64,000 nt of DNA from Cristatella mucedo. Its lineage: Eukaryota; Bryozoa; Phylactolaemata; Cristatellidae. The notes beneath the pieces are model-generated. The model worked only from the letters and a program-made list of their open reading frames with translations, had not been told where the DNA came from and did not search any database. Below, piece by piece: positions 3,284 to 33,472 of this stretch (position 1 is the first letter of the stretch; each line of letters starts with the position of its first letter). Where the stretch lies: NCBI GenBank assembly GCA_009760855.2, contig WPIO01000162.1, positions 186,001-250,000 on the forward strand. The letters are read 5' to 3'. The position numbers and the translations under genes are program-made.

Positions 3284-3336
3284 ACGATTCAATCAACAAT
3301 CCCTGCACAGCTGCTGACATAATGAGGAATTTTGAG
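3284..3336 (+). CDS. Exon A, unit 1
   Basis: A 53-nt internal exon between tgaattttgcag and gtaacaca. It starts by completing a codon (phase 1, reading Asp with a G from the previous exon) and ends in phase 0. The peptide reads DSINNPCTAADIMRNFE. Five other copies in the window keep the acceptor, the donor and a length of 2 modulo 3. Paired with exon B1, 1.5 kb downstream, it gives a 47-codon module. The family is not recognised. Confidence 0.65.
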
Positions 3337-3749
3337 GTAACACAAGTTTGCTTACTGTATGGGCTTCCTTTACAGTTAAACCAGTTTGCTAGATAGTAAC
3401 CAAGGTGATGACTTTGGCCTGACGGAATTATCTTATCTTATAAGAGTATTCAATCCCAGTGCACTACTAGGGTCAATTTTCTTTTAAAGACCACGCTAAA
3501 TTCAGTCTTGGCATCGGACTAAACTATTGTATTCGAATGTCGAAATGTATCGTCGCTTTAAATATCGGTGATGCTTTTAATTTAATTTGTTAAATAATAG
3601 CCAAGTTTTTACATATTATGTCGGTAACGTAGTTTCATCCATATGCAGTGTAGACATGTATTTCTTTTAAACAATATTTTGCAGCTGTCGTGCTTCGTCA
3701 GAACAGCTAAATATTAACCGTAATGTACGTCATAAAGCGACATCACAGA

Positions 3750-4265
3750 GATCGATCTCTTTCTAGTCTCTCTAAATTTGCTTCAAAATAAGCACGATCG
3801 AATAATTAGTGATAGCATGCTAAATAAAGGACATGAAAATCATGGCTAGTGCTAACATGCACGGGGTCGGCATGAAACTATGGTTAGTGGCAGCATGCAC
3901 AGTGCCAGACTGCACAGAATCAGGAAGCACATGCTCATAAAGGTCAAATCTTAGGAACCCACTGCAGACTGTGATAAATACTTGAGTTTTCAGTTTCTTT
4001 TTAAATGTGGTCAAGTCAGGTTATGTCTTGACGCAGCTCGGAGTGAGTTCCGGGTTTTGGGATAATAATAAGTAATGGCACGGTCTCTAAAGTATTTGAG
4101 GTTTGTAAGAGGTATAGGTAAACAGTTAGATTCTCAAAAGGTAGTGCTACGATGCTTAGCCTGGTGAAGAAGCAGATCTGATAGGTAGGCTGGAGCCAAA
4201 GAACGAAGGGACCTAAAAGTCAGTGACACCGTTAAAGACAATATCAACTTAACAAGCTTTTCAGT
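3750..4265 (-). mobile_element. LINE family B 3' fragment
   Basis: Minus-strand fragment with the LINE-B 3' UTR words and the C-terminal polymerase region, including the sequence that in better copies encodes DLTTFKRNLKTHLF (here DMTTFKKKLKTQVF-like). Shared by both duplicates, so it was inserted before the duplication. Confidence 0.75.
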
Positions 4266-4479
4266 TGCAGCTTAGAAGCTAGTACTTACTCACGAGGTGC
4301 TACAGAGAATTCAATTTCATCATCCTAACTTGCTGTTCATCACTGGCGTTTCTCTCTATCGTTGTGAGTTGCAGCTGGAACTTACTTTTTCGTTAGCCTA
4401 TACATGTTTACTAATTGCCCATCTAAAAAATGTCTTGGGCATCCAATTATGTCGCTTGTTACCCTGCATCAGTTAGTTT

Positions 4480-4796
4480 ATCCATTTCCCTGATTTGACC
4501 ACATTTGAAAAGAATTTAAAAAACACACCTATTTAGGACAGCGGTTAGTGGGTCCCTGTGATTATTCCTTCATGTGCTTATGTGTGCTGCTACTGTGCAT
4601 GCTGCCACTAACGACATTTGCATGCTGACTCCGTGAATGTCACACTAACCCTGTTATTCATTTTGTTTATCAAGCATGAGATTACTCACCATTCAAACGT
4701 GTTTCCCTTTCCAGCAAAGGTAAAGCACCTATAAAGAGATTGAGTTCTCTGAGGGCGCTTTATCAAGTGCATCATTGTTATTATTAATAGTATTAA
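4480..4796 (+). mobile_element. LINE family B 3' end with ATT tail
   Basis: Plus-strand 3' terminal fragment. It runs from the region encoding the last polymerase residues (tttgaccacatttgaaaaga) to the terminal block gagttctctgagggcgcttt and an ATT-rich tail. It lies in inverted orientation to the fragment at 3750. It is shared by both duplicates. Confidence 0.8.
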
Positions 4797-4863
4797 TTTC
4801 TATTAGGATTTTACTTTGTCTGCTGTAGTCAGTACTCTTCTGTAGTAACATTCACTTTTGCAG

Positions 4864-4951
4864 CAGCAGAAGGCGGATACCTACCTTACACCAATTGAGG
4901 GCAATAACCTTGAGCAAACGGAAGAAGATATCTACGAAAGCGTGGAAATTG
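4864..4951 (+). CDS. Exon B, unit 1
   Basis: An 88-nt internal exon, acceptor ttttgcag and donor G|gtataa, entering in phase 0 and leaving in phase 1. Its 29 codons begin QQKADTYLTPIEG and end EEDIYESVEI. Two tyrosines sit in Yxx-hydrophobic-like settings (YLTP, YESV). The acceptor is a NAGNAG type, so small length variants are possible. Neighbouring copies keep frame and splice sites. If the donor were ignored the frame would stop six codons later, so a terminal-exon role cannot be excluded. Confidence 0.65.
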
Positions 4952-6529
4952 GTATAATGCATAGCTAAACAATCGATAGTTTTTATATTTTACATGGTTT
5001 TTATTATAAGGCGTGCCTGCATTTTTGCATGCAAGACCAAAAGTAGGTGATGATTTTGAAGAACAACTTTAAATGATTCTACCTTAATCTGACGTTAACC
5101 AATATTTTAAGTCGGTCTCATAATTGCAATTTGTAACGTTCCCTCTCACAAAATGGACTATATCAGCCGTGTCGCTTAGCTACTTAACATGTTATTGACT
5201 ATAACCTAATGGTACATTTTTAAAACTTGCAATTTAAAGAACTAACATCTGGCCAAATTTAGCTTAATAATGATCGCAGTGATTTCTGCCGTCCTCAATG
5301 AGGCAATATTTTTGGTTCTTAATGCAGTACAATATGAATAAAAAGAGAAAAAGATCACGATTATTTGTTCTCGCGAAATCTTGCTACTACCTTACCATTG
5401 AAGACTTGCCTACGTCATAACATGTGGCTTTTGTTTTCTCTGACCGTTGTGTGGTTCATTAGCGTTTAGGACTGATTATAGTGGCATTGAATTCTTACCT
5501 TTGCAGCATGTTATCAAGACAGCTCGATAAAATGGCGTAACTGAGCTGTTACCTAAGCTCTCATAACAGCAAATTCAAATTACTTACCTTGACCATCAAG
5601 GAAAATATTTTCTGTCTGCTAAATGAAGTACCTATCTGGAATGTGCGAGCGTTTTGTAGATAAATATTCTAATAGATGGACTGCTGGTGCAGTCGTTCGT
5701 AAACTTAGTTTAAAGAAAAGTTGCAGATACAGAATATGCTGCACTTGCTTGAGTGTTAGCTAGTGAATCTAATAAAAATCAGCTAGAATACCTTTGTGAA
5801 ACTAAAGCCTCAGGTAGCGAACTGTAATTACAATGAGGTTCTTCAATTATGGACCCTTCACTCTGAGAGCCACACAAATACGCATGTAAATAAAGATTAT
5901 GTGCACCTCTCTAATTGACTTCACTTGTTAGCACGTACAATGGGCTGCTTAAGACATCTGTAGAAAAGTATCTTACCTATTATCATTACTGCCAGGGCTA
6001 TGAAATATATACTAATTATTCTTAAAAAGGTTAATTCATTCTAATTTCTAAGAAGTCAAAATGTAGTTATTGTAAGGCCCTCCTAATGAAAGTAGTAAAC
6101 ATTATATTTCAGGTAATTGTAAGTAGTCACCATCTTTTGAGCCAGTCATTTGCTTCCAATATGCTATGTTCAACCAAAACAGCAATAATGATATTCATAC
6201 TATATCAGCAACACTTATGATGCAAAGTTTTCCGAAGTAATAAGTGTTTTTTGCAACCGTGTATGCCTAAAAATCGAGAGGTCATGGCGATTACTCATTG
6301 CAGACGTTGTTGTCTTTACTATACTGGTGAAAAATTAAACACCTATTTAATTTATTTTTCAGAACATACGGAATTATGTTTACCTTAGGTCGAATTTCTG
6401 TGGTTAAGTAAAATATTTTTATTATGCATGCCATTTTTTCCATTATCACTCCAATCACAAACAGAATAAATATGTCCCTCGTCTCAGGGGTTATACCCTG
6501 CACCCAAATACAGGCTGATCATAATAATA

Positions 6530-7510
6530 AAATAATAGAGAATTTTAAACAGCACCCTAGGAGAACTGAATCTCTATTTCTAGGCACTATGAATATGGCT
6601 GCAAGGCTGGTCTTCAAGTCCCAGCGGTTTGAGCACGTGTCACCTTTGCTGAAAGAGCTAGGATGGTTGCCGGTTGAGCAAAGGATACAGAGCAAGTTCT
6701 TATGCTGACCCACAAGGCCCGCCACGGCTTGGCTCTTTCGTACCTAGCTGAACTGCTGCATCAGTTTCAGCCTCTTCGCGCCCTCAGGTCCTGTGTGGAC
6801 AATAAATTAGCTGTCCCATTCCTCCGCTTAAAGACAGTTGGCGACAGAAGCTTTAGCTCTGCAGGTCCTAGACTGTGGAACTCGCTTCCACAATGATTAG
6901 GCAACGACATCTACTCTCCGACTGCCGACTATGGCACATCTTTTTCAGCGGTCCTGAACTGCCAATTCTATTCTACTCACTACCTCAACTGCTCTCCTAA
7001 CTCTGCTATGGTTCCCACTTTCTCTTTGTTGCTTGAGACGAAGTCTGTTGGCTACCGAATGCGTGCCGAAAGCCGCTTAGGCTGTGAGTGGGCTATACAA
7101 AACTCTCCTGCGTAACACCCACATGGTCTTTATGACTTTGTGGAATTACTGACGGTGATACATTATATTCACTTTAAGTTTCCAGCAATGGAACAACGAT
7201 CGAATGGTTAGTGGTAGCATGTTTAATACAAACGTGAATAGCATCGTTAGGGTTGGCATGCACAGGTTCAGCATGCAAGCATGCTTAGTGGCAGCATGCA
7301 ATGTGTCGGCACACATAAGCACATAAAAGGGCGATCTCAGGGACAAGCTAAACACTGTGATGAATAGATGCCTATTCAGTTTCTGTTCAAATGTGATCAA
7401 GTCAGGAAATGTCACGAATGAAGAAGGGAGTAGGCTCCAGACCCACAGAGCATACAAACTGAAGGCAAAGTCTCCAAAGGATTCGAGTTTGCTGTTAAAT
7501 GATTTATTAA
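6530..7510 (-). mobile_element. LINE family B 3' end split by LINE-A
   Basis: Duplicate of the 2340-2757 fragment. Its two parts (about 6530-6586 and 7167-7510) are separated by a plus-strand LINE-A insertion. The uninterrupted copy at 2340 serves as the empty site. Confidence 0.75.
6587..7166 (+). mobile_element. LINE family A 3' fragment, insertion in duplicate 2
   Basis: 5'-truncated LINE-A copy. It encodes the post-RT C-terminal region NMAARLVFKSQ then LLKELGWLPVEQRIQ, with one frame break near 6700, followed by the family's 3' end (ttactgacggtgatacatta). It is absent from the matching place in duplicate 1. CACT occurs on both sides and could be a short target-site duplication. Confidence 0.9.
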
Positions 7511-7776
7511 GAAAGCAACACTAGACCAGAAAAACGTAAGAAACGTCTGCCTTGTTTACCTGCTGCTCCAATGAATTAGGATGTTCAGAATGGTGATGTA
7601 CCAAAATATTAACATGATCAACCACTCTAATCTAGTTATCAAAGAGTGAGAGATTATCATTCTGTTGATTCAGAATTGCTCAAGGTATTGAATGGGTTTG
7701 TCACAACTGCAGATTTAGAAAAAGTCCCTCTATTTATTTTCCTAAATACTGGGGTAAAGTTTATCACTCTAGATAC

Positions 7777-7972
7777 AGTATTTTGAAATGCCTCTTATCG
7801 GATTTGGGAGTGGCTGACAGGCTGTTAAACCGTCCAGCTCACAGGCTGACACATTCAGGCGTTACTGGCAGGTTAGTGCAACTGGCCAGCTCCTGTCTCA
7901 CTGTCAAGGTCAAGTGCATCCAAGTACATCGGAAGAACACACCCGATGAGCGCATGAAAGTACGAATGCAAC
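7777..7972 (+). CDS. Putative exon or coding block C2
   Basis: Copy of block C1 in the second duplicate. It begins SILKCLL and later reads KCIQVHRKNTPDERMKV. The frame is still open despite several substitutions. The possible donor at 7973 reads CAAC|gtatca. Function unknown. Confidence 0.35.
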
Positions 7973-8043
7973 GTATCATAATTAATACTATAACTCAAAC
8001 TGAGATAATGTATCGATTCACAAAGATTTGATGAATTTTGCAG

Positions 8044-8096
8044 ACGATTCAATCAACAATCCCTGCACAGCTGCTGACATAATGAGGAATTTTGAG
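8044..8096 (+). CDS. Exon A, unit 2
   Basis: 53-nt copy of exon A1, identical in peptide (DSINNPCTAADIMRNFE) and in both splice sites (tgaattttgcag and gtaacaca). Phases 1 in, 0 out. It lies in the second segmental duplicate, 1.5 kb upstream of exon B2. Confidence 0.65.
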
Positions 8097-8509
8097 GTAA
8101 CACAAGTTTGCTTACTGTATGGGCTTCCTTTACAGTTAAACTAGTTTGTTAAATAGTAACCGAGGTAATTGCTTCGGCCTGACGGAATTGTCTTATTATG
8201 TAATACTAGTATTCAATCCCAGTGCACTACTAGGGTCAATTTTTTTTCAAAGACCACGTCATATTCAATCTTGTCATCGGACTGAACTATTGTACTCGAA
8301 TGTCATAATTTATCGTCGCTGTAAATATCTGTGATATTTTTATTTAATTTTTGGACTAATAGCTATGTTATTACATATAATGTCGGTAACGTAGTTTCAT
8401 CCTTATACGGTGTAGACATGTATTTCTTTTAAACAATATTTTGCAGCTGTCGTGCTTCGTCAGAAGAGCTAAATATTAACCCTAATGCAGGTCATAAAGC
8501 AACATCAGA

Positions 8510-9025
8510 GACATCGATCTCCTTCTAGTCTCTTTAAATTTGCTTCAAAATAAGCACGACCGAATGATTAGTGATAGCATGCTAAATAAACGACATGAAA
8601 AACATGGTTAGTGATAACATGCACAGGGCCATCATTAAACTATGGTTTGTGGCAGCATGCATAGTGGCAGCATGCACAGTCTCAGGAAGTACACGCACCT
8701 TAAGGACAAGTCTTAGGAACCCACTACAGACTGTGATAAATACTTGAGTATTCAGTTTCTTCTTAAATATAGTCAAGTCAGGATATGTCTTGACGCAGCT
8801 CGGGAGTGACTTCCGGGTTTTGGGACAATACTAAGTAATGGCATGGTCTATAAAGTATTTGAGGTTTGTAAGAGGTATAGGTGAAAGATTAGATAATCAA
8901 AAGGTAGTGTTACGATGCTTAGCCTGGTGAAGAAGTAGATCTGATAGGTAGGCTGCAGCCAAAGCATGAAGGAACTTTAAAGTTAGTGAAACCGATTGAG
9001 ACAATATCAACTTTAAAAGCTTTTC
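8510..9025 (-). mobile_element. LINE family B 3' fragment
   Basis: Second-duplicate counterpart of the 3750-4265 fragment, same orientation and same truncation. Confidence 0.75.
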
Positions 9026-9239
9026 AGTAGCAGCTTAGACCCTAGTACTTACTAAAGAAGTGCTACTAAGAATTCAATTTCATCATCCTAATTTACTGTT
9101 CATCACTGGCGGTTCTCTTAATCGCTGTGAGTTGCAGCTGTGACTTACTTTTTTGTTAGCCTACTTAAGTTTACTAATTGCCCATCTAAAAAATGTCTTA
9201 GGCATCCAATTATGTCGCTTGTTAGCTTGCATCGGTTAG

Positions 9240-9556
9240 TTTATCTATTTCCCTGACTTGACCACATTTGAAAGAAATTTAAAAACTCACTTATTTAGGA
9301 AAGCATTTAGTGGGTCTCTGTGAGTCATCCTTCATGTGCTTATGCTTGCTGATACTGTGCATGCTACCACTAACGACACTTGCATGCTGACTCCGTGAAT
9401 GTCACACTAACCCTGTTATTCATATTGTTCATCAAGCATAAGATTACTGACCATTCAAACGTGTTTCCCTTTGCAGCAAAAGTAAAGCACCTACAAAAAG
9501 ATTGAGTTCTCTATGAGAGCTTTATCAAGTGCATTATTATAATTACTGTTAGTATT
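9240..9556 (+). mobile_element. LINE family B 3' end
   Basis: Second-duplicate counterpart of the 4480-4796 fragment, ending in an AT-rich tail derived from ATT repeats. Confidence 0.8.
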
Positions 9557-9625
9557 AATTTCCATTAGGATTTTACTTTGTCTGCTGTGTTCAGTACTCT
9601 TCTTTAGTAACATTCACTTCTGCAG

Positions 9626-9713
9626 GAGCATAAGGCGGAAACCTACCTTACACTGACTGAGGGCAATAACCTTGAGCAAACGAAAGAAGATATCTACGAA
9701 AGCGTGGAAATTG
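9626..9713 (+). CDS. Exon B, unit 2
   Basis: 88-nt exon, acceptor cttctgcag and donor G|gtataa, phase 0 in and 1 out. It reads EHKAETYLTLTEG at its start and EDIYESVEI at its end, with tyrosine motifs YLTL and YESV 13 residues apart. Compared with exon B1 all changes are substitutions and the frame is intact. Confidence 0.65.
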
Positions 9714-9801
9714 GTATAATACATAGCCAAACAATCAATTGTTTTTATATTTTACATGGTTTTCTTTATAAGGCGTGCCTGCATTTTTGCATGCAAGACC
9801 A

Positions 9802-10515
9802 GCTCAGTTTTCTTTAGCATTAACGTGAGTCTGTATTAAACTGCTCCAGGGATTTTTCTTGTTGCGTTTAGGATTGGATGCAAATTAAAAAAGTGAGAAA
9901 GATAGAGATCTAGCAGATTTCGAAGACTTTACATCAGTCTACGCCCGGTAGCTTAGAAAATTAACGATTATTTTTTCGCTTGAAAGCTGAAGTCCTGATA
10001 ATCAGAGCCATAACGTATTGTAAGAAGGTTAAAGATTTGCTGGCTAGTTCTGAGAGTAATCAATTGCCGTAAGACAAGGGCTCGTTGTAGACGTATTCAG
10101 CCATTATTAGCGAAGCTATTGTGGGAATTCATGCAGCCATAACAAAGTATACAGCTAAAGCATTTGCTAAGTCCTAACCTGTGACATTTTTAAGTGATTT
10201 TCCGTTAGTTGTGCAAGCAACGTGGCTACCTCAAAAAGTTGTAGTACTATAAATAGATCTCGTCTCGTGACGGCCATATACCACAATCTCAGCTGTATTC
10301 ACTGGTTGAAAAGTGCAGTCCAGATCTTATTAAGATTTTCAAAACGTCTGTGGAAAAAAGGGGTCCTGGTCAAGTCCTAAAAATCGGCTATCTAAAGACC
10401 AATAATTAAAATCCGTGGTTTTTTACAGTTGTCTTTGGAATAAGGATCAAAGTTCCATTCGAATTTCCTAGTAAGTTTGCTGCCCAAGCCAAATTTGAGC
10501 ATTATGTTTTACGAT
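9802..10515. other. Intron-like sequence, no gene seen
   Basis: Unique AT-rich sequence to the right of the segmental duplication. I see no exon copy, RNA gene or retroelement in it. Confidence 0.5.
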
Positions 10516-11165
10516 TGCTGAATCACTCTCTGTGAATAACTGCGATAAAGTTGGTCTTGTCATCATTTAATATAAGAGAGATTGTTGTCATCCATGTGAG
10601 GAAGCTATCAATACATGAAGCAGGGAAGATTTCGAAATTCGACAAGCTTGAGATCGGGAAGGGATCAAATCTAAGGTACAGCTGAGTATAATCTACCATG
10701 AAGTGAAAGTTGAGATTGTGCTTCGCAAACACATCGGAAAGAGGGAGAGTATACACTGCACAAAGAACGGGACCAAGCACTCAGCCCTGAGGTTTACCGT
10801 ACTTCAGCGATTCGTCTAATGATCATGAGTCCATTCCCAGCACTTATTCGAATATTTGTTTGAGATTGAACACAAGATATTGCAAAGCTGTGCCAATGAT
10901 GCCTAGGCGAAATGAGAGGCCATAAACAAAGAATATCTGATCAATACTTAAGTCAGCAGTCCTGGTAAGGTCGTTATGCAATCGAATACATGCTGATTCT
11001 GTGTAGTGACAAGCTATAGGGCTGCTCGTATTAGAGAAGTGTGAAGTTCCAATATATGAGTTCAGTTAATCAGCGACGAGTCGTTCAAATAACTTTGATA
11101 AGAACGGTAGAAGAGAGATGAGGTGATAGTTGCTGCCGCTTTCTTGGCTTAGAGTTCGTTTTTCA
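10516..11165 (-). mobile_element. LINE family B reverse transcriptase fragment
   Basis: Minus-strand fragment encoding MLGPVLCAVYTLPLSDVF, then VDYTQLYLRF (the YADD box mutated to VDY) and LNDDKTNF. Multiple stops and shifts. Its upstream edge merges with unclear sequence near 11.16 kb. Confidence 0.8.
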
Positions 11166-11284
11166 AGTAGTGGTCTGACTCTAACTTTTTGGAAACTTTT
11201 GCGACATGATATGCAGCCAATCACATATTAAGGATGATGAATATGCATGGGAGACTTGCTTTTCTCGGTAGAGAGTGGCCGAGC

Positions 11285-12545
11285 TAAATCCTTCTGCCTT
11301 TTATGTATAGTCACGAAGCAGCTGCTAGAACACATCCACATAAATAAAATTTCAGAGCTGGTTTTTAATCTGGGTTTAAGTGGGTGCACTCTGCTGAAAC
11401 TGCTACCCTGAAAGTAACCAATTACTTCTTATGTATCTGGAATGCTGGCGATATCGCTGCCATAGCATTTATAGATCTATCAGCAACTTTCGACAATATT
11501 GACCACTATATCCTACTTGAACGATTGAGAGCTACAATTGCTGGGGCGGACGGGGCACTGACGTGATTTAAATCGTAATCGTCTGAATGTGTTTAATCCA
11601 CGTCCTGTGGGGGTTAGGTCTCTTCCACCATGCCGGTCACCCACTTGGTCCCTCAAGGGTCTATAGTCAGTCCTTTTCTGGTCTCCTTTATTACTCAAGC
11701 TCTACGGAGAGTTGCTTAGTACCTCAGTTTTGCTGTTGCTTTGATGATGAGATTCGCAGCCATATTGGTCATTTAAAAAGTCAGAATCTGTTGTAGCGAC
11801 TGCGAAACTAAAAGCTTGCTATAAAGACATGCGATAAAAAAATCTAAACTATCACACAATGCCACTGCCACTCCTGAGATACACCATGTGTGTAGCTGGA
11901 GCAGATTACTTAGCTCTTTAATCAGGAGACACTGTATACTACTTTCATGACGAGTTCAGAATTTTGGTGCCGTCTTCGAATGTTGCCAAAATTTTGAAAG
12001 CTTCCTGGTGAACAGAGCTTTTACAGCTAGGCGTAATGTCCGATCCTTGTTGAATATTAGGAACTGTCTCCCATGGTGGCTAGCCAAGAATTTACCACGC
12101 TTGTTAGTTCCTTATCAGCTATAATATTGCCAATCGTTTTGGCTGAGCTATCGAAAAGGGCACAAGGAAGCTACTACTGGGGATGGATATAGCTGAAAGG
12201 ATAGTATAAAAATCCCAGAGGTTTGGACATGACAATTCTTGGCTGAAATAGCTTGGATGGGTTCTGATTCATTATTGGAAACAGAGCAACATACTTACTT
12301 TGAAAAAACCTGCCAGCCCGGCTTGGCTCCTTCAAGCTTAGCTGAACGGCTGCACCAGTTAAAACCAACTCGTACCCTCGGGGCTTATATGGATAATCAA
12401 TTAGCTGTAGCAATCCGCCTTATGAAGGCCGTTTTCTACTAAAGCTTTCGTTCAGCCTGTTCTCCACCGTTGAGCTCACTTATACAATTCTTACATAAAA
12501 GTGATTACTATCCTTCGGTCGACTATGGCATTTCCTTCTCCTACG
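11285..12545 (+). mobile_element. LINE family A, decayed RT copy
   Basis: Plus-strand copy. It begins at the residues upstream of the RT domain (similar to KQLVEHIEIN at 41.34 kb), passes through AIAFIDLSATFDNIDHYILLERL (RT motif with FDNIDH for FDTIDH), and ends inside the C-terminal region. Heavily frameshifted, probably one of the older copies. Confidence 0.8.
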
Positions 12546-13750
12546 AGCATCACTGGTACAGCATTACGATGGTTCAGATCATATCTCAGTGACAGACACT
12601 AGAGTATTAGTAATGATATGTAATGTACAAAGATCATACCAGGCCACTCCGAAGTATTGGGTACCTCAGAGATTTTTTCTTACTTCAAGTCTTTTCATGG
12701 TTTATACTCTCCCTCTTGGGGATGTGAATGCCAAGTATATTGTAGGCTGATAATTCTATGCAGATGGCATTCAGTCGTACCTTTGCTTTGATCCCTTCCA
12801 GCCCTCCAGCTTGTTGAATTCTATAAACTCACTTGCGACACGTATTTTTACCATCCTCACCGTACATGGATGACAACAAATTGTCTTAATTCGAATGATG
12901 ACAAAACCAACTTACTAGTCATGGCCAAACCAAGTGCAATGCGGATATTGGAAAGGCTAAAGCTCACAATTGGCTCAACCAGCATATATCCTGCTGAATC
13001 TGGATGAAACAAAGGTGTCGTGTTCGAAAATGACTTTTCAATTGGTAACCACAGCAGCGCCACAGTCAAGCTTGCCTACTTTTAGCTACATAAATTACCT
13101 AAAATTCTGACTTGCTTTGACATGGATAACACATATCGATTAGGCTATGTTTTCGTGACATACCGTCTTGACGTCTGTAACTCAATTCCTGCTTGTCTAT
13201 GGGCCAACCCACTCAGTCACTTGCAGCTGGTGCAAAACGTTGCCGCTAGGCTTGTATGTTGTGAGCCTCGCAGTAGCCACATCACAGCACTTCTCGCCGA
13301 CCGGCACAGGCTCCTAGTCAAAAGAAGCATCAATTTAGAGGTTTTGTCACTCGCTTCGTTCTTTGGCTCCAGGTTAACTGTAACATATGCTGCCCATTAG
13401 GCTAAAAATTGCAACACCTGCTTCTTTGAATTTGACTAACAACCCATACTTCATGTAAATCTCAAGCGGTCTGGAGACCGGGTCTTTAGGACGTTCACTC
13501 ACAAGCCTGACAGTCACTCCCGACTTGCGTCATGACATCTCCTGACATGTCCAAATCGAGAAAAAAAACTAGAAACGCACAGCGATTTATCACAAAATTT
13601 AGTGTGTCTCAGTGATTCGGCCTTTGGGTTCTTATAAGTATTGACACTATGCATGATGACACTAACTATAATTACGTGTGCTGATCCTGTGCATGTTACC
13701 CCTGACCATAATTTCTAGTTGCTTATTGAGCGTGTAACGTCTGACAATTA
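12546..13750 (+). mobile_element. LINE family B, decayed copy abutting LINE-A
   Basis: Plus-strand LINE-B fragment joined directly to the LINE-A fragment. It covers the RT palm (weak DDTQ remnant), the C-terminal region read as FVTYRLDVCNSIPACLW then LVQNVAARLVCCEPRSSHI, and the 3' UTR words. The abrupt A/B join suggests a nested or template-switched insertion. Confidence 0.75.
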
Positions 13751-13842
13751 GATCTTCCTTCGCACCACGAAAATTCCTAGAGGGAGATTCATTTAATTAA
13801 GGGTGCAGTATACAAGTTTCGTTTTTGTTATTCTTATCTGCT

Positions 13843-14345: not shown

Positions 14346-14544
14346 GCGTAAGATATCGGAGATACATATCAAAAGGTGATAAGGTCAAACAAGGAATCGA
14401 GAGGCTATAAACAGGTCCTAGCTGTATCTATTTAGGTATACATTTTTACGAAAACTTTGGTTTTTGGTAGAATTATGCAACGTACAGATGTGCCTGTTAG
14501 CATACGTGTGTGCCACAGCAATAAAGAATCTAATGCTATTGACA

Positions 14545-17644: not shown

Positions 17645-17700
17645 ACTATTCAATAAACTATCAAAATAAAGGTGCTCCTTTTGGCTCGGGGAAATTTGAA
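17645..17700 (+). CDS. Exon A, unit 3 (orphan)
   Basis: 56-nt exon-A copy, acceptor gataaattttag, reading YSINYQNKGAPFGSGKFE, ending in phase 0 before gtagaagt. An alternative donor six bases downstream would add Val-Glu without changing phase. No exon B follows before the next exon A at 18449. Splicing it directly to that exon would break the frame, so it is either skipped or a relic. Confidence 0.5.
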
Positions 17701-18448: not shown

Positions 18449-18504
18449 ATCCTTCAGTCAACCGTCACCACGGAGCTGGTAATATGTGTCCAGGTACACT
18501 TGAG
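18449..18504 (+). CDS. Exon A, unit 4
   Basis: 56-nt exon-A copy with a good acceptor (gattgatttgcag) and donor (gtaatgtaag). The phase is 1 in, 0 out. The peptide reads PSVNRHHGAGNMCPGTLE after the split Asp codon, so it is the most diverged intact copy. It pairs with exon B3, 1.3 kb downstream. Confidence 0.55.
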
Positions 18505-19839: not shown

Positions 19840-19921
19840 GAGCCGAAGAACTTCCAAAAACTAATTAAGGACGAGAACCATGAGCGAACGTACGAACACG
19901 TCCACGAAAGCATCAAAATCG
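19840..19921 (+). CDS. Exon B, unit 3
   Basis: 82-nt exon, acceptor caatgttgcag and donor G|gtatac. It is two codons shorter than its relatives but keeps phase 0 in and 1 out. It reads EPKNFQKLIKDENHERTYEH and ends HESIKI. The first tyrosine motif is lost (NFQK) while TYEHV remains. A length change of exactly two codons supports coding constraint. Confidence 0.6.
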
Positions 19922-22388: not shown

Positions 22389-22450
22389 ACGATTCAATCA
22401 ACTGTCCACAAGAAGCTGCTCCTTTCGGCATGGGTAATTTTGAAGTAGAA
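22389..22450 (+). CDS. Exon A, unit 5
   Basis: Exon-A copy after gataaattttag, reading DSINCPQEAAPFGMGNFEVE, with a consensus donor gtaagt at 22451. An earlier weaker donor would remove the last two codons. Length is 62 or 56 nt, both 2 modulo 3. It pairs with exon B4, 3.2 kb downstream. Confidence 0.6.
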
Positions 22451-23159: not shown

Positions 23160-23252
23160 ATATCTGGTGACAACTTCAGCTCCACCGCGAAGTCTGCCTA
23201 CTTTTAGGAACATACCATTTCCGAAAACTCGGGCTTATTTTGACACGGATAC
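23160..23252 (+). mobile_element. LINE family B short fragment
   Basis: About 90 bp resembling 37585-37675 (agctccaccgcgaagtctgcc and the following words). It lies head-to-head with the larger minus-strand copy that starts 5 bp later. Confidence 0.65.
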
Positions 23253-23256
23253 ACGT

Positions 23257-24085: not shown

Positions 24086-24109
24086 AGTAAAAATGTAGAT
24101 AGATCGCTG

Positions 24110-24940
24110 TATAAGACTGCTATGAAAGATTTGAAATTGATACTCAAATAGACGTATGCAAAATGCAGTAGATTTCGAGTTGTCTTCTCTTGTGGTAGCG
24201 CTTGCATCTCAAAATTCAAATTAATTACTGTCTTCGTCTTTAAAGAGCGAAGCTTTTTTCATGAAGCTTTCAGCTCGAAGAACGTTTGGTTGTCCATTGT
24301 TTTCACACGTTCTGTCTTCTACATTTTACCCCGTTTCTCTGTTCTTGTAATCGTCTTCGTTCTTCTTATTTTCGTCCTCCTCAAACTGTGTCTTCTTATT
24401 TATTGTGTGATTATTAAAACATTGCTTGTGTTTTTCTCTTAACTTTTCTTCAGCTTTACCCACTTCAAAAAATCGTGTACTATGTTGCCATTTACTATCT
24501 AGGCTAGCTTGTTTTTTGTTTTTCTTGGCGCTACTTACGTTTTTTTCTCCGTTCTCTTCTGAACGTAGGTTCAGGTCGCCTAAAATTTTAAAATATACAC
24601 TGCATACGCAATGGAAATGCAGGTCACGGAGCGGGAATAACAATTGCTTTCACTTTGTCTCTGGATGATGAGGTTGAGCCATAAAAGAGCTTGACAGCGA
24701 AGCTTGAGAAAATTGGAAGATCCTACCTTGTCTGCATGCTTTTGCCAGGAGTCTCGTTGCATTCATTTTTGTTGAAAAGGGTAAAATCCAAACGAATTCT
24801 CAATAATCGCTTTCTCCGACTTACTATTTGGAGGCGAGCATTCCGAGTGAGCGGCAGACATACCCTCTCAACACCTCTGCATTGATTGGGTGAGCTCTGG
24901 CGGGAGTACCAGGCTGGTAGAGCTTGTTAAGCCTTGCGTG
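24110..24940. other. AT-rich stretch with unassigned Lys/Glu-rich minus ORF
   Basis: A minus-strand frame of 105 codons (24326-24643) is rich in Lys, Glu and Asn and would form a coiled or disordered peptide. The plus frame is Leu/Phe-rich. Low-complexity TC/AG composition can produce such frames by chance. I cannot support a gene here, but a host exon is not excluded. Confidence 0.3.
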
Positions 24941-24941
24941 T

Positions 24942-25220
24942 TCTATGATAATAATAATAATAATAATAATGTTCTTGATAAAGCGCACTCAGAGAACCTA
25001 ATCTCTCTCTAGGCGCTTTACGTTTGCTGCAAAGGGAAATGCAATTGAATGGTGAGTAAAATCATGCTTGAAAAAGACACAAAATAAATAACATGGTTAG
25101 GGGTGACATGCACAAGGTTAGCATGCAAATACGGTTAGTGGCAGCATGCACAGTGTCAGCATGCATAAGCACATGAAGGACGATTTGAAGGGACCACTAA
25201 ATGCGGTCCTAAATTGGTTA
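24942..25220 (-). mobile_element. LINE family B 3' end with TAA repeat
   Basis: Minus-strand 3' UTR fragment starting with a clean ATT-type microsatellite (24948-24970) and the terminal block. It ends near the stop codon of the polymerase. Young-looking at its 3' end. Confidence 0.85.
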
Positions 25221-25608
25221 CTGGCTTAACTAGCTCAGCTAGCAATATTCAAGTCCTCTGAAACATTTACTTACTTTGAATAACGATTAACACTTTAATA
25301 TGACTCCGTTTTCAAAATAAAATACTCACAATCGTATTTGCTTGTTGTGACCCTTCACCTTGGTGCCCGGGGCTACTTGCCGCTGCCCTTCTCTCACTAC
25401 TCCACCGTTAACTAACGCTCGGGCCTCATACACTCGGGTATTCACAAAAGACTATCTTCATGTTACAGTTTACCTGGAGGTAAAAGAACATTCGATAACT
25501 TTGTGCTAACCAATCCACAAGAAAATTTTTCTCCTTCCATTGAATTTCCCTACGGATTTATTTATTTGCTAAAGTCAGCCTTTTCTCATGTAAAATTTGC
25601 TGTTGCAG
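25221..25608. other. Intron-like sequence, no gene seen
   Basis: Contains a polypyrimidine-rich lead into the exon B4 acceptor. Nothing else recognised. Confidence 0.5.
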
Positions 25609-25696
25609 GAGCACACTACGGATGCGTACCTTACTCTGATTGAGAGCGAAGACTACGAGCGAACTTTCAAACTAACCTACGAAAGCCCGAAAATTG
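25609..25696 (+). CDS. Exon B, unit 4
   Basis: 88-nt exon, acceptor ttgctgttgcag and donor G|gtaggc, phase 0 in and 1 out. It reads EHTTDAYLTLIESEDYERTF and ends TYESPKI. Three tyrosines (YLTL, YERT, YESP). The frame is intact despite strong divergence from units 1 and 2. Confidence 0.65.
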
Positions 25697-26609
25697 GTAG
25701 GCTGCAGTGCGACCAAATTTATGTTTCATTCTTTTTTCGGATTTCTTGTGTGTATTTTTTCCAGATGTGTTAAATGCAATACTAGTTTGGCTAGCTGCCG
25801 TGCCAATCCAAGGCTATAAAAACTCAAAAAGATATGAATTTCAGTGCATCTACATTTTTTATGTGAATTTCAATTAGGCCTTATGGTAATACAGGACTCT
25901 TTACTAACTTCCGCAAAGGTGTTTTGTATTACTATTCGGAATGGTAATGAATCAATAAATTTATCTCTAAATAGGTTTTTCAAGTCTAAGGAAAAACTTC
26001 CACTATGCTCCCCTCTAGTTTATTACTCTTTATTTGCTCTGTCATAGCAGTCTCTTTCAGACGCGTGTAGACCTTCTACTGCTCACTTTAGCAGCTACTG
26101 TCACAAGCGTAAGGTCTCAGTTTAAGTACCTACTTATCTTAGAAAAACAGCCAGACCACCTGCTGGCAACATGTTGCTTGCCGATCTCATTCTAGACGCC
26201 GTAATAAATCAGTTCGTAGCATCTACACTGTAATCATAAGAGAGACTATACCACATTCCTCTAGCTCGCTTAGATTATATCAAATATATGGCTACGTATT
26301 TTGCACTTAGTGTTAAGGAGTCGTGATCTAGTCGTTCACAGTAGCATTCTCAATGTTAACAAGCCTAACACGGGCAGAGGTGATATGCAAAGCTTCAGGG
26401 TATACACATGGCTAGTGGGAGCTTCCACAGTTTGAGCTCATACAAGGACACAAAGCAAGGAGTAACTGATTACTAAAATAGTTTTTTTTCTCATAGATAT
26501 GGCCTTTCTAATTTTTTTAATATCCTATCAAGTGATGTGATCAAATTCCGTAATACCAAACGTTGACACCGGCCGAAAGGGATTCCTCATATTATCCTAA
26601 AACTAATAA
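25697..26609. other. Intron-like sequence, no gene seen
   Basis: Shares words with the regions after exons B3, B5 and the dead B6 (for example aaaaacttccactatgctcc near 25990), so it is a duplicated intron. No coding feature seen. Confidence 0.5.
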
Positions 26610-27068
26610 AAAGGATAAGTTCGATAAAGTGCCCTTAGTAAACTCGATCTCTTTTCAGGTGCTTCACCTATGCTGCAAAAAACACGATCGACTGGTTAGT
26701 GGTAGCATACTCAGTAAATACCAAGAATAACACGGTTAGGGCTGACATGCTTTGGGTCAGAGCTTGTTTGGTTAGTGTCAGCATGCACTGTGTCAATAAC
26801 ACATAACGGATTAATCACAATGACAATCTGGTGTGTTTTAGTGTCTTCTTAAATGTAGTTGAATCATGAGTTGTTGTTTCACAATTCAGGAGGAAGTTCC
26901 AGGCTTTTGGAGCTTACCAACTATGGAGGTTTTGTACGGTGTGGTGGTCAACCATTACATTCCAAAAAGCTGGTGATACGAAGCTTCGCCTGGCGAGTCA
27001 GTTGATCTGATAGGTTAGCTGGAGCCGAAGCTTGAAGGGACCTAAAAGTGAGAGACACAATCTCTAGG
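26610..27068 (-). mobile_element. LINE family B 3' fragment
   Basis: Minus-strand 3' terminal block and 3' UTR with decayed C-terminal codons. It abuts a plus-strand LINE-A fragment at 27069. Confidence 0.75.
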
Positions 27069-27488
27069 TAGTTGTTATGCTGACCCACAAAGGACCGCCA
27101 CGGCTTAGCTCCTCCATACCTAGTGTAACTGCTGCACCAATTTTAGTCTCTTGGTGCCCTCAGGTCCTATAGGGAAGATAAATTAGCCATTCTATTCTTA
27201 GGCTTATAAACCGTCAGCGACAGAAGCTTTAGCTCTGCAGGTCCTAGACTGTGGAAATCGCTAACACAATTCGTATGCGACGACAGCTACTCTCCTGCTG
27301 CCGACTGTAGCTCATCCTTTTCAGCGGTCCGAACTGCTACTGCTACTTTGCTGCCATGCCTCCCACTTTCCCTTTGTTGATTAAGATGAAGTCTGTTGGC
27401 CACCAAATGCATACCAAAAGCCGCTTATGCTGTGAACAAAACCAAACAGTCCTGTGTAACACCCACGTAGTTTTTATGGCTTCACAGT
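27069..27488 (+). mobile_element. LINE family A 3' fragment
   Basis: Plus-strand fragment starting at the codons for LTHKARHG (ctgacccacaaaggaccgcc) and running to the 3' UTR (acacccacgtagtttttatg). The extreme 3' tail is damaged. Confidence 0.8.
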
Positions 27489-28960
27489 TTTTACGGAATC
27501 ACACTGGGTTTGCCCGTAACTAGTAAGTTAGTTTTATCATCGTTAAGTTTTAGAAAATTTGCTGTCATCCATGTGCGGAAGTCATCAATACATGCAGCAA
27601 GTGAGTTGAGAGAATTGGAGGTGCTCGAAGGCTGGGAGGGCTCAAAACAAAGGTACAACTGAGTGTCATCCGCATTGAAGGAAAAGCCTAGATTGTGCTT
27701 GGCAATCACATCGGCCAGAGGAAGAGTATTAACCGGGAAAAGAACCGGACCACGCACTGAACCCTGAGGTACCTCATATTGTATAGGCTCCTGTAATGAT
27801 CCTTGTCTATTCACAACTATATTCCAGAGTCTCCCACTAAGACAGGACCTCAACCATTTTAATGCCGTGCCAGGATGCCCAGGCTACTGGTGAGAGGTGC
27901 TCGAAAAGGACTTGTTGATCGATAGCACCAAAAGTTATCAAAAGATCAATCTAAACAAGAAGAGACTCTACCTACGTCTGCTATTTTTTAAGAAGGTAAT
28001 TGTACGCCGGAAGCAATGATTACTCCAAGGAATAAATAGCTCTAAAACCAGAGTCCTCGGCATCAGGAGCCTACGAATAAAATGCGTGGTCTCAGAAGGA
28101 CTTGAGGTTTGTTTGAGATATTACAATACAATTATATTTATAAAAGCGGAAGGTACGATGCCCAGCCTTGTGATTTAGTAGATCTGATAAGTCGGCTGGA
28201 GTCAAAGAATGAAGGGAACGAACAGTGAGTGGAAAACCTTGAACTCGTGACTAGAGCTTGATTGGAAGCTAGTGCCGGCTAGAGAAAAGTTACCTGACGT
28301 GGTAACTGCAGCACTCAGGCCAAAAAAGAATAGAGGCCAAAGTTTCCATCAACTGTAAGCATGTCAATGCTCAGGCCGAAGAACAAAAAAGCATTAAGTT
28401 CCAGCAGTCAAAAAGGATAGCACGTATGCATAAGCCAATTTAGATGTAGTATCGCTTTCTAAGAAAGCCCAATTTGTAGCAAGGTTAGGCAGCTGAAAGT
28501 AGGAGGACGTGAACATGGACCTGATGTATTTGTCTAATAAAAAGTAATTTTCAAAGATTTCTTCTCGATATCGTGCGGATTCAGCAGGAGAAACGCTTGC
28601 ATAGCTAGATATTCAATGGTAGGTTTTCTATTTTCTGAATCATACTTGGTTTGCCCTAACTTAGTCAGGTGTTCCAATCGTCATGCAAAGTAAGAAAATT
28701 GTTTGTAACCTTAATGTGAAAGTCATAATGGAGTAGAGTGAATTTGACTTTCTGAATACACCCGGAAAAGTGCCACTGGCTATAATCTGAAAGCCTAGGT
28801 TGAGCTTGGTGGTTCCTTTGGAAAGAGAGAGAGTATAAAGCAGAAAATAATCGGAGCAAGCAAAGCTCATGGAGGCACAGCCTAAGTTTGTGATTCTAGG
28901 GATGATGCTTCACCGTTCATATCACTGCTGTGCAGCACACTTCTTAGATAGGACCTGAAC
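27489..28960 (-). mobile_element. LINE family B RT fragment(s)
   Basis: Minus strand. 27491-27853 is a 120-codon open frame with the RT core: PQGSVRGPVLFPVNTLPL, NADDTQLYLCF (ADD intact, Tyr changed to Asn) and LKLNDDKTNLLV. From 28075 to 28960 a second, more decayed minus-strand segment repeats the post-RT and palm regions, so two copies are probably stacked. Confidence 0.85.
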
Positions 28961-29964
28961 TTAGAACTTAGAACCTTAGTAATGTTTACGATTTTATTGA
29001 GGAATTAAAACAAATTGGAACGTTCTAGATACGTTAGAACTTGTAACTTTTAATCTTCGACAATAAAAGAAAGACGCTCCCGTCTGGTTAGCTTAGTTAA
29101 TGGTCAGCCGATTAGCCAATTTCAGCCAGAGCTTGTTGAGTGCTAGCAGGCCAAAGCCTTTTTTCCGAAATAGCTTCACTAATTATCAATAATCACTTCT
29201 CAACAATTTTAATAAAGTGTTGAGAATTGATTATTTTGCTATTGACCAAGCAGTTTCTATGTATAACGAGTTTTAGATCATAATTTGAACTTGCCAGCAA
29301 AAGCTGGGAACTAGTTTGACCAAAAATGCTCCCGTCATCCTATACGAAGCCCATCTAACATTTCATGTCCTTTGCAGAAATGAATTGCGCAAATTAAAGT
29401 ACTTGCGAACATCTTACAAAAAACCTTCACGGCTAAGACCCATCTAAATCTTACCCGATTGTTGCTTTATCGTCGCCTATAATAAAATCATATGCCTATG
29501 GACATCTGAACGTTTCCTGATTGGAGCTGAGTCAGCGGCACGAGCAGATGCCTTAGATTCTGCAGCTGCTTGCATACTGCCTACTAGGTTTGGGCATGCA
29601 TAAATAATTACCTTTTTGCTAGCGTACTTTGAATTCATTACTTAGATATAGTTGATGTCGCTAGTGTTCATTAATTGTGCATTAACTAAAGGAAACATAC
29701 TGACAGGTGGTGCCGAGCCTTGAACCATGGTGCAGCTCGTTTGATATTCGTAGGACTGCCTCCAGCTGTCCTGTCAGATCTCCTAAAAGCCATGCTGTAA
29801 ATGTCTCTGACTTAGTGGTATTCAGACTTGCTTTAACTCCGACGGCCCAACTTAGTGCTGGTCTATAAAATCAATGCTTAACAGTTGTGGTGCACTCTCA
29901 GCGATAGAGTAAAGAACATTCATGCAAATGTGTAGCAGGTCAGGGCCTATCTCGGCGATTAAGT
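28961..29964. other. No gene seen
   Basis: Unassigned sequence between LINE-B and the next exon-cassette unit. A tRNA-like or SINE word near 29080 was too weak to call. Confidence 0.45.
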
Positions 29965-30048
29965 AATGAGCATCCAAGTAATTAGGCGGCAATCATCCGG
30001 CCACCATCTGAATGTACTGATGCAATATATTGACGACGATTAATGCTC
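29965..30048 (+). pseudogene. Coding block C6 (decayed)
   Basis: Right half of block C, reading SIQVIRRQSSGHHLNVLMQY then IDDD and a stop. It aligns without gaps with CIQVRRE in C1 and SIGVNRQKSSEYHLIV in C3. An in-frame stop lies just upstream (LGD, stop, VM), so this copy is probably dead as coding sequence. Confidence 0.35.
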
Positions 30049-30100
30049 CCAATTTTAACTTGGGTTCCTGAGATGCACAAACATCTTAGCGAATTTGCAG

Positions 30101-30159
30101 ATGACTCTGTCAACTATCCCCACCACGAAGCTGCTAATTTCGGCACGGAGAAATTTGAG
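30101..30159 (+). CDS. Exon A, unit 6
   Basis: 59-nt exon A, acceptor gcgaatttgcag and donor gtagcg (weak). The phase is 1 in, 0 out. It reads DSVNYPHHEAANFGTEKFE, one codon longer than units 3 to 5 because of a second His. It pairs with exon B5, 3.2 kb downstream. Confidence 0.55.
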
Positions 30160-31002
30160 GTAGCGTAAACTCTGCATATCTGACAGGCTTTTCCTTTGGA
30201 CTTCATTAACTTAGCTGGAAATGCTGGCAGCCAAGTCAATGCCGTTCTCTTGTACAACTTACGTAATCTTATGAAGCTGCTTTTTAATCTGGGTGCAATA
30301 GCTGGGCTGTTTTCTGTCGTGTCTACCTTCAAATTATTAATTTATTTAATTTATTCTATTTAATCTATTTAATTTAATCTATGTAATTTAATTTTTTCCT
30401 AGAAAATACTTTTCATGATTTAATTTATCATTTGCTCCGTGCAAGCCATCTATTTACATGTGGTTTTAGTAAGATTGCTTTACCCGTATGCCATCTAGTT
30501 ATGCATTTGAATGCCTAGGACTTCTCAATCTTAACTTTACAACTAGCAGCAATGAAGAAATTAGTAGCTTTAGTAGCTTTTAAGCACCATTACAGACAAC
30601 AGCATGTCCTAAACAATTGACAATACCAATACGTACAGTCGATTTGTACGGTGCTAACTTACTATTTTGTGATGCAATTTCCTAAGATTGTCGAGAGTCG
30701 CTTCGGTAACTCTCTTATTGGCTAACCTATTCGTGACTCCTACTTGCCTATCATGAGATGTAGTTTTCAGTAGGCTGCTTCCTAGTTGACAGCAACGTGT
30801 TATCTCTTAAAAACCGCTAGATTGATCCTCGCACATCTGTAACGTTCATTTTATGTCTTACAAGGGTAACATCTGTAACGATCTCTCTCAATATCAGTAG
30901 TGCTGTGTTAGCGTATGAGTTCGTTGATCGATTTTAACAACGTTTAGATAGACCAAGACTTTATTTCGCCAACGTAGGAGAAAGACAGAGACAGAGAGAA
31001 TA
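30160..31002. other. Intron-like sequence, no gene seen
   Basis: Shares agctggaaatgctggcagcc with the introns after A4 and A5, and the words gcaagccatctatttacatg with 42.92 kb. Contains a short simple run of ttaattta words at 30340-30390. Confidence 0.5.
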
Positions 31003-32335
31003 AAAATAATAATAATAACTCACTTGATAGAGCGCCCTCAGAGAACTTAATCTCTCTCTAGGCGCTTTACATTTGCTGCAAAGTGAAATGCAATTGAATG
31101 GTAAGTAAAATCATGCTTGAAAAACAAACGAAATGAATAATATGGTTAGGGGTGACATGCACAGGGTCAGCATGCGAATGTGGTTAGTGGCTGCATGCAC
31201 AGTGTCAGCATGCATAAGCACATCAAGGACGAATCACAGGGACCCACTAAATGCTGTCCTAAATAGGTGTGTTTTTAGGTTCCTTTTAAATGTGGTCAGG
31301 TCGGGGGATGTTCTGATGCAGGTCGGGAGGGAGTTCCGGGGTATGGGAGCATACGAACTAAATGCACGGTCTCCAAAGGATTTAAGGTTTGTACGAGGTA
31401 TTTCTAGACTGTTGGATTCCGAGAAGTGGGTGGTACGATGCTTAGCCTGATGAGGTAATATATCTGAAAGATAGGCTGGAGCCATAGAATGAAGGGACCT
31501 AAAAGTGAGCGACAAAACCTTGAAGTCAATCCTTTACTTGACTGGTAGCCAGTGCAGGCCGGCGAGAAGTGGTGTAATGTGGCAACTGTGACGCTCACAA
31601 CAGACAAGTCTAGCTGCCGAGTTTTGAACTAGCTGCAATCGCCTAATCGTACATGCTGGTAGGCCAGTAAGCAGTGAGTTACAGAAGTCTAGACGGGATG
31701 TCACGAATGCATGGACCAACATAGATGTGGTAGCTTTGTCTAAACAAGCCCGAATTTTAGCAATGTTATGAAGCTAAAAATAGGCAGATTTGACTGTGGA
31801 GCTGATATGGTCGTCTAACGAGAGGTCGCTTTGGAATATGACACCTAGATTTCGAGCTTACTCAGCTGGAGATATACTGGCAGAGCCAATTTTGAGAGTC
31901 AGCCTTTCCAATCTCTGGATCACACTGAGTTTTCCCATAACTAGTAAGTTAGTTTTATCATCGTTTAGTTTTAAAAATTTTTCTGCCATCCATGTGCGTA
32001 TGTCATCAATGCATGCAGCTAGTAAGTTGAGAGAATTTGAGGTGCTCACAGGCTGGGAGAGATCAAAGCAAAGGTACAACTGAGTGTCATCCGCATAGAA
32101 GTGAAAGCCTAGATTGTGCTTGGCAATGACATCAGGAAGAGGCAGAGTGTACACCGTGAAAAGCACCGGACCTAGCACTGAGCCCTGAGGTACTCCATAT
32201 TTCAGAGGTATTTCAGATGATCTTTGTCCATTCACGTCTACACTCTGGAGTCTCCCACTGAGATAGGACGTGAACCACTGCAGAGCAGTGCCAGTGATGC
32301 CCTGGCGAGATGAGAAGAGGTTCGGTGAGGTCAGC
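31003..32335 (-). mobile_element. LINE family B, best minus-strand copy
   Basis: About 1.33 kb, 5'-truncated. Starting from an ATT-type tail at 31003-31017, the minus strand carries the 3' UTR, then the polymerase C-terminus (31234-31515, DLTTFKRNLKTHLFRTAFSG at its end), then LVHAFVTSRLDFCNSLLTGL (31534-31722), then the RT core (31858-32235: PQGSVLGPVLFTVYTLPL, HFYADDTQLYLCF, LKLNDDKTNLLVMGK). The catalytic YADD is intact. Two or three frameshifts separate the blocks. This is the family's reference copy in the window. The organisation and motifs fit the CR1/Jockey/Rex group of APE-type LINEs. Confidence 0.92.
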
Positions 32336-32634
32336 CGGCCGGCAGAGTAGTGTAAGTCCTCTTAGCCCAAGCCTCAAGAAAGTAGTGGTCTTTGTCTGCA
32401 ACCAGAAGATGGATTTGGGTTCAGGCATGTCTGAACTCAAGGGAGATTAATCTTACAGCTGGAAATTTATTGGCAAACCATGGATTGCTACAGATGTGAT
32501 ATTGAGCGATGTTATTTGTCAAGAATACGTCTGTATTTAATTTAGACTTAGTTTAATTTTTTCTACTTGGCTGCTGACAAGACTTGCACACGCTTTTACC
32601 TCATAAACTCAGGGATTTATATAAAAGCTACTTC
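32336..32634. other. No gene seen
   Basis: Short spacer between a LINE-B 5' truncation point and a LINE-A fragment. Confidence 0.5.
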
Positions 32635-33152
32635 ATGCTGAAAGAGCTAGGATGCTTGCCGGTTGAGCAAAGGATACAGAACAAAGTTCTTAAGCTGACC
32701 CACAAGGCCCGCCACGGCTTGGCTCCTTCGTACCTAGCTGAACTGCTGCATCAGTTTCAGCCTCTTCGCGCCCTCCGGTCCTGTGTGGACAATAAATTAG
32801 CTGTCCCATTCCTCTGCTTAAAGACAGTTGGCGACAGAAGCTTTAGGTCTGCAGGTCCTAGACTGTGAAACTCGCTTCCACAATTCTTACGCAACGACAA
32901 CTACTCTCCTACTGCCGCCTATGGCACATCTTATACAGCGGTCCTGAGCTGCTACTTCTATGCAACTCACTACCCCAACTGCTCTCCTGACTCTGCTATG
33001 CTTCCCACTTTGTCCTTGTTGTGTGAGACGAAGTCTGTTGGCTACCGGATGCGTCCCGAAAGCCGCTTAGGCTGTGAGTGAGCTATACAAAACTCTCCTG
33101 TGTAGCTCCTGCGTGGTTTTTATGACTTTCTGGAGTTACAGACGGAGATACA
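32635..33152 (+). mobile_element. LINE family A 3' fragment
   Basis: Plus-strand fragment with an open frame (32584-32868) reading LKELGCLPVEQRIQNKVLKL then HGLAPSYLAELLHQFQPLRA, followed by the 3' UTR and the terminal gttacagacggagatacatt. Very similar to 42.27-42.80 kb. Confidence 0.9.
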
Positions 33153-33381
33153 TTACAATTTGCTGAATTTTCGTCTGGAGTTATTATTATGATGATAAAG
33201 GCACTCGAAACGGCTGCCTTAGATGTAAAACAGGACAGATTATCATTTCCTGACATCGATGAATATTCAATAATTTAGTACTAACCAAGCTAAGGCGAAA
33301 CTGTTAAAATTCATTCTTATTTCCCTAAAGATTTTTTTCGCTGTCGTCAGCACTTGCCTTCAGCAAAATTTACCCTTGAAG

Positions 33382-33472
33382 GAGCAGAATGCTCACACCT
33401 ACCTAAGAGTGATTAATGGTGGTGAGAACCATGAGCAAGCTAACGAAGAAGCCTATGAAAGTCGAGAAATTG
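33382..33472 (+). CDS. Exon B, unit 5
   Basis: 91-nt exon, one codon longer than unit 1, phase 0 in and 1 out, donor G|gtatat. The acceptor reads ccttgaag instead of the usual tgcag, a possible weakening. It reads EQNAHTYLRVINGGENHEQA and ends AYESREI, with motifs YLRV and YESR. Confidence 0.55.

Follow-up and report, generated by a model that had tools for sequence, protein, structure and literature searches.

The PEVK region of titin and nebulin are coding arrays that arose by exon duplication; their exons are phase-compatible and their length can vary with splicing. A further example is the kringle IV type 2 (KIV-2) array of LPA, apolipoprotein(a), which encodes a kringle, a folded extracellular domain. 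The KIV-2 unit is described as 5.6 kb long, with exon lengths of 160 and 182 bp and a 4-kb intron, and as present in 1 to more than 40 copies (PMC6314250). The two exons sum to 342 bp, that is 3 × 114. Here, an array of duplicated exon pairs is described from the bryozoan Cristatella mucedo, in a stretch of 64,000 nt of contig WPIO01000162.1 (positions 186,001 to 250,000, forward strand; assembly GCA_009760855.2), which is referred to as the window and numbered from its first letter. Two short exons, A and B, recur along its plus strand, and the best explanation of the locus as a whole, with a probability of about 0.6, is that they belong to a single animal gene in which a repeat region expanded as the A-B unit was duplicated.

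A second kind of system bears on the encoded product. Immunoreceptor tyrosine-based activation motifs (ITAMs) are carried by tails such as that of CD3 zeta, and the tails of CEACAM proteins are built from several small exons. The ITAM consensus is given as YxxL/I-x(6-8)-YxxL/I (PMC9231431), and sets of four cytoplasmic exons are described that encode a non-canonical ITAM, YxxLx7YxxI/M (PMC2832619).

Organisation of the exon array

The predicted exons are the following.

3284..3336, plus strand: exon A1, 53 nt, phase 1 to 0, DDSINNPCTAADIMRNFE, the codon of the first D being split with an upstream exon
4864..4951, plus strand: exon B1, 88 nt, phase 0 to 1, QQKADTYLTPIEGNNLEQTEEDIYESVEI
8044..8096, plus strand: exon A2, 53 nt, identical in sequence to A1
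9626..9713, plus strand: exon B2, 88 nt, with 7 differences from B1
17645..17700, plus strand: exon A3p, 56 nt, open frame and weak donor, 748 bp upstream of A3
18449..18504, plus strand: exon A3, 56 nt, the most dissimilar of the A copies
19840..19921, plus strand: exon B3, 82 nt, with F and H in place of the tyrosines at the two columns described below, and one other Y
22389..22444, plus strand: exon A4, 56 nt, or alternatively 62 nt with its end at 22450 and a perfect donor, gtaagt
25609..25696, plus strand: exon B4, 88 nt
30101..30159, plus strand: exon A5, 59 nt
33382..33472, plus strand: exon B5, 91 nt, with the acceptor gaag instead of gcag
44035..44119 (end nominal), plus strand: dead exon B6, with TAG as codon 2 and the donor GT lost

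All the A and B lengths and end coordinates given in a preliminary description of this DNA were recovered, every A length being 2 and every B length 1 modulo 3. Its other statements on the layout also held. The six A and five intact B exons all lie on the plus strand; the acceptors, donors and phases are conserved, with AG/GT and an open frame in 11 of 11 exons and with A running from phase 1 to 0 and B from phase 0 to 1; and the order, described as mostly alternating, departs from alternation at the adjacent A3p and A3. From 5′ to 3′ it reads A1 B1 A2 B2 A3p A3 B3 A4 B4 A5 B5, followed by the dead B6. Profiles of A and B were built from the 11 intact copies and B6, flanks included, and a search with them of the 64 kb (both strands, E up to 10) returned exactly six A and six B exons, on the plus strand only; beyond the dead B6 at 44,035, this search found no extra A or B in the window.

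Since A passes from phase 1 to 0 and B from phase 0 to 1, an A-B pair constitutes a phase 1-1 cassette. The pairs measure 141, 141, 138, 144 (150 with the long form of A4) and 150 nt, each sum being a multiple of 3, and a joined pair would encode 46–50 residues, in agreement with the module of about 47 residues proposed earlier. Splicing A3p to A3 breaks the frame; the phases of these two exons are incompatible, so that at most one of them could be used per transcript.

Origin of the array by tandem duplication

The duplicated units are best seen in the two first copies and, in a degraded form, at the far end of the array.

908..5039, plus strand: duplicated unit 1, carrying A1 and B1, aligned end to end with 5040–9801; its edges were found again with free boundaries
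5040..9801, plus strand: duplicated unit 2, carrying A2 and B2 and directly abutting unit 1; a retroelement 3′ end at 6589–7169 is present in this unit alone
42916..44104, plus strand: remnant of a sixth unit, keeping intron blocks and B6, with A6 absent beside a retroelement that ends near 42.8 kb

Over 908–5038, units 1 and 2 are identical in 3626 of 4125 aligned columns (88%), a count that excludes the 581-bp retroelement end found in unit 2 alone. Exon and intron blocks common to the copies also occur, in the same order, in units 3–6. Because these blocks are shared in order and units 1 and 2 abut, the array was made by head-to-tail duplication of genomic DNA, introns included. Exon identity among the older copies is 54–77% for A and 62–70% for B, the dead B6 included, and between the copies there are retroelement fragments in both orientations.

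In the sixth unit, segments 42916–43072, 43214–43361 and 44012–44104 align with unit 3 or 5, and the profile search found no A exon within the remnant 42916..44104. Decay of the array is also evident from its copies: B6 is dead, A6 has been lost, A3p is unpaired and in module 3 (A3 joined to B3) both column tyrosines have been lost. If transcribed, the array would be a readable record of the growth and decay of a coding repeat, with the recent duplication (88% identity), the older and more diverged copies, the A without a partner and the dead copy at the end all lying within 44 kb.

Evidence that A and B are exons

Four lines of sequence evidence argue that A and B are real exons: lengths that change by multiples of 3, the aspartate at the junctions, conservation above that of the flanks and conservation of the exons between units 1 and 2. 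First, the differences in length among the A copies and among the B copies are all multiples of 3, and the 11 exons keep their splice sites and frame in older copies that differ at 23–46% of exon sites. Second, the B-to-A junction is uniform. The final nucleotide of all five intact B exons is G and the six A exons begin with AC or AT; the split codon would therefore always be GAY, which encodes Asp, and the only variation in it is silent. Third, exon identity is higher than that of either flank in 14 of the 15 B pairs (with one tie at two decimals) and in 10 of the 15 A pairs, which are not independent comparisons and which include the dead B6, as similar to the rest as the live copies are. 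Fourth, between units 1 and 2 exon A has 0 differences in 53 positions and A plus B has 7 in 141, against 172 in 1525 (11.3%) for the intron between A and B. Pairs of windows of 53 and 88 nt drawn at random within the unit had 7 or fewer differences in 1.6% of draws.

The longest run of identity between the two units, 111 bp from position 3271, spans exon A, and the next longest is 61 bp. The run continues through 45 bp at the start of the A1 intron (3337–3381), which are the same in A2 though the units differ by 12%; this may be a splicing element or a patch of gene conversion.

The encoded module

A joined A+B pair reads, for example, DDSINNPCTAADIMRNFE-EHKAETYLTLTEGNNLEQTKEDIYESVEI. The modules are acidic and hydrophilic, with a net charge of −2 to −10; the charge-hydropathy rule places all five on the disordered side and no membrane-like stretch was found in any of the five. 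The tyrosines of B fall at two columns, each occupied in four of five copies, with 13–14 residues between the motifs. The conserved final Ile may be due in part to the splice donor. By inspection, none of the 11 tyrosines listed for the modules lies in an immunoreceptor tyrosine-based inhibitory motif (ITIM), S/I/V/LxYxxI/V/L (PMC9231431). The paired motifs resemble an ITAM, and this resemblance suggests phosphotyrosine docking as a likely function of the module, without membership of the ITAM or ITIM class. If the tyrosines dock, the locus would be a natural setting in which to ask whether a signal grows stronger as motifs are added.

A more far-reaching reading, and an unlikely one, is a lineage-restricted animal signalling protein whose cytoplasmic tail would be a run of phosphotyrosine-docking cassettes. 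Encoded by skippable phase 1-1 exon pairs, the docking sites would vary in number among individuals and splice forms, and tyrosines would be gained, lost and swapped by unequal crossing-over.

Searches for relatives

A protein search with the joined five-module chain yielded 333 candidates and a second one, accepting longer candidates, 842, with none at E ≤10 in the first and none in the second; candidates had to share exact words and fit a length range, so that distant relatives may be missed. The PDB returned two chance-level matches only. In Pfam, with E up to 10, the joined chain gave three irrelevant weak matches and two single modules gave none. Rfam at gathering thresholds and a tRNA scan were likewise empty. 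The B motif, written as degenerate DNA patterns, matched four viral-contig records and one record from a bacterial metagenome-assembled genome, and these matches are likely due to chance.

One gene or several

The proposed explanation runs as follows. A genomic unit with exons A and B would have been duplicated head to tail, forming the repeat region of one gene. Its phase 1-1 cassettes could be inserted, lost or skipped in any number with no frameshift, each adding 46–50 residues. All the live A-B pairs would be spliced into one mRNA, the other exons of the gene lying outside the window or being too short to see. The product may be a disordered, probably cytoplasmic region, a step with less support than the single mRNA. 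Also with less support, the tyrosines encoded by B (for example in TYLTL and, after 13 residues, YESV) might be phosphorylated and bound by SH2 domains, and the number of cassettes would then set the number of docking sites.

Several results weigh against this explanation. In each of the five pairs that include exon A3, at least one flank is better conserved than the exon, and these are the only A pairs in which the exon falls short of its flanks. The preliminary description had named exons diverging like introns, with no frame bias, as what would refute it, and on this point the results are divided: 14 B and 10 A pairs exceed their flanks, the A3 pairs do not, and the ratios given next fall on both sides of 1. 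At the real spacing of A and B, 94 of 2459 pairs of windows equal the low difference count of the exons, so that the exon contrast between units 1 and 2 is only suggestive, and the run of identity around A, with its 45 bp of intron, may be the product of gene conversion. The ratio of nonsynonymous to synonymous differences (pN/pS, Nei–Gojobori) over 10 module pairs ranged from 0.48 (4 versus 5) to 1.55 (1 versus 3) and exceeded 1 in three: apart from that highest value, 2 versus 3 gave 1.15 and 1 versus 2 gave 1.42, the latter with only 7 changes. Purifying selection is thus unsupported for pairs among modules 1–3, and the comparison of dN/dS among copies that had been suggested earlier gives a divided answer. 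Even with the spacer widened to 6–12, a strict ITAM occurs in none of the five modules and nowhere in the joined chain; a very loose form (spacer of 6–16; L/I/V/M/P) occurs in three of the five. The module has no relative among the proteins, Pfam families or PDB entries searched. Finally, neither a start nor an end of the gene, nor any signal, membrane or domain exon, was found in the window.

The alternative that survives best, unlikely as it is, holds that the array is dead or dying, a set of largely unexpressed exon duplicates undergoing drift. It draws on the dead B6, the absent A6 and the A3p without a B, on the many retroelement fragments in the introns and on the pN/pS above 1 of module 3 against modules 1 and 2. 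The identity of the dead B6 to the other B copies, 0.65–0.68, is also like that of these among themselves. Against drift, 11 of the 12 exons found are still open and have splice sites, and in a neutral simulation the chance that a lineage keeps its frame and splice sites and acquires no stop was 0.19–0.38 for A and 0.10–0.25 for B, that is, 0.10–0.38 overall. On a star tree, with the missing A6 and the dead B6 counted as failures, the neutral probability of the whole set is 6e-7 to 5e-4, which is a guide and no clean p-value, the copies having been chosen for being intact. Further, pN/pS of module 5 against modules 1, 2, 3 and 4 is 0.54, 0.65, 0.66 and 0.48. To go by these ratios, selection looks uneven, with modules 4 and 5 constrained and module 3 relaxed.

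Somewhat less credible still is that the units form a cluster of tandem paralogues, separate genes that each end in or contain one A-B pair. Duplication of such genes would leave head-to-tail units of several kb with one pair each, as seen here, and two frames might be additional exons: 4958–5036 (pN/pS 0.12, 6 changes) and 4612–4729 (0.23, 7 changes), the second of which overlaps an interspersed repeat family. A total of 136 segments are open in both units 1 and 2, and the results given here come from the 25 of greatest length and the 10 of lowest pN/pS. In the few short frames whose ratio is low, it is based on 2–13 changes each. The longest shared frame, 2990–3266, has a pN/pS of 0.94, contrary to what paralogues would predict. 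Pfam scans of the plus-strand frames (stops as X; 1–39.5 kb, 42.8–46.8 kb and one frame of 55.4–60.8 kb) gave only reverse transcriptase, although short or novel exons would escape them. The Asp at every B-to-A junction, moreover, fits splicing from B to A. Two candidates for further exons were set aside: the frame 2990–3266 itself, 93 codons just upstream of A1 and open in unit 2 too, was rejected as a hidden exon at its ratio of 0.94, and a terminal exon just after ~3692, proposed by sequence reading alone, was dropped, retention of its site not being seen in the older units. Overall, no convincing further exon was found in the 4.1-kb unit among the shared frames inspected, though a small one may exist there. 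As neither a convincing further exon nor a domain was found, a single gene with a repeat region is a better fit than a paralogue cluster; of the two possibilities left side by side in the preliminary description, the first is therefore favoured, without being proven.

It is very improbable that A and B are fragments of some dispersed mobile element and not exons of a host gene. Interspersed repeats on both strands abound in the whole region, but A and B lie on one strand, head to tail and in register with their introns, six of each and nowhere else in the 64 kb, whereas the reverse transcriptase repeats occur on both strands.

Mobile elements and other features of the window

Two larger elements lie in the window.

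39668–42800: non-LTR (long terminal repeat) retrotransposon, with an endonuclease-like frame (PF14529, just below cut-off) and a reverse transcriptase frame (PF00078, above cut-off)
46846–55306: bracketed block of 8.4 kb, flanked by 192-nt inverted repeats that are 92% complementary

The 3′ end of the retrotransposon is also found as separate copies, for example at 6586–7169 and 32636–33157, the former being 93.5% identical to 42220–42804. Its reverse transcriptase (41257–42747) has, over 67% of its own length, 90% identity to one Joint Genome Institute (JGI) sequence on a 1,152-bp contig. Among 120 matches listed of 7738, those with a named organism are mostly from fish, with one coral and two labelled bacteria (probably through contamination), at ~44–51% identity. 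These relatives point to an animal source and do not indicate its phylum. A viral-contig scan with the reverse transcriptase gave no match.

The bracketed block is AT-rich at ~48–54 kb (29–33% GC) and contains short open frames, one of which matches Endonuclease_7 (PF02945). Other frames in it, with no Pfam match, we take to resemble pieces of a type-B DNA polymerase. Taken as a whole, the block is probably the broken form of a Polinton-like element. When one open stretch from the AT-rich part was used in a scan of viral contigs, 13 stretches matched and no relative was confirmed. Inside the block, at 53819–53986, lies a 60-bp tandem repeat of 2.8 copies with 85% matches.

Many interspersed repeat copies, several of them on both strands, are spread over 2431–45549. 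They include a 49-nt family of 17 copies with a GGTTAGNGGTGACATGCACAGGGTCAGCATGCAA-like sequence, close to reverse transcriptase remnants and ATT-repeat tails. At 60001–64000, GC rises to 52–60% and arginine-rich frames occur on both strands; a promoter or a repeat region rich in GC is one possible explanation.

Comparison with known systems

The locus shares its plan with LPA KIV-2. In both, a tandem unit of about 5 kb holds two exons with a long intron between them, and the exon pair makes one protein repeat. As in that architecture, the exons of the two-exon unit sum to a multiple of 3 and have equal phase at both ends, and the duplication is head to tail, on one strand and includes the introns. 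The product differs, since the module is of about 47 residues and predicted to be disordered, unlike the kringle. The copies differ as well: units 1 and 2 aside, they have diverged at 23–46% of exon sites, and the array decays at one end, unlike KIV-2. With ITAM tails the module has in common two tyrosines, a hydrophobic residue at or near +3, a short acidic stretch and small exons. In contrast to ITAMs, the spacer is 13–14 residues and V, P or R stands at the end of the second motif; no sequence homology was found, and no receptor was seen. To titin PEVK and nebulin, sequence and context are unrelated. Taken together, the sequence of the module appears to be new, whereas its architecture is of a known kind.

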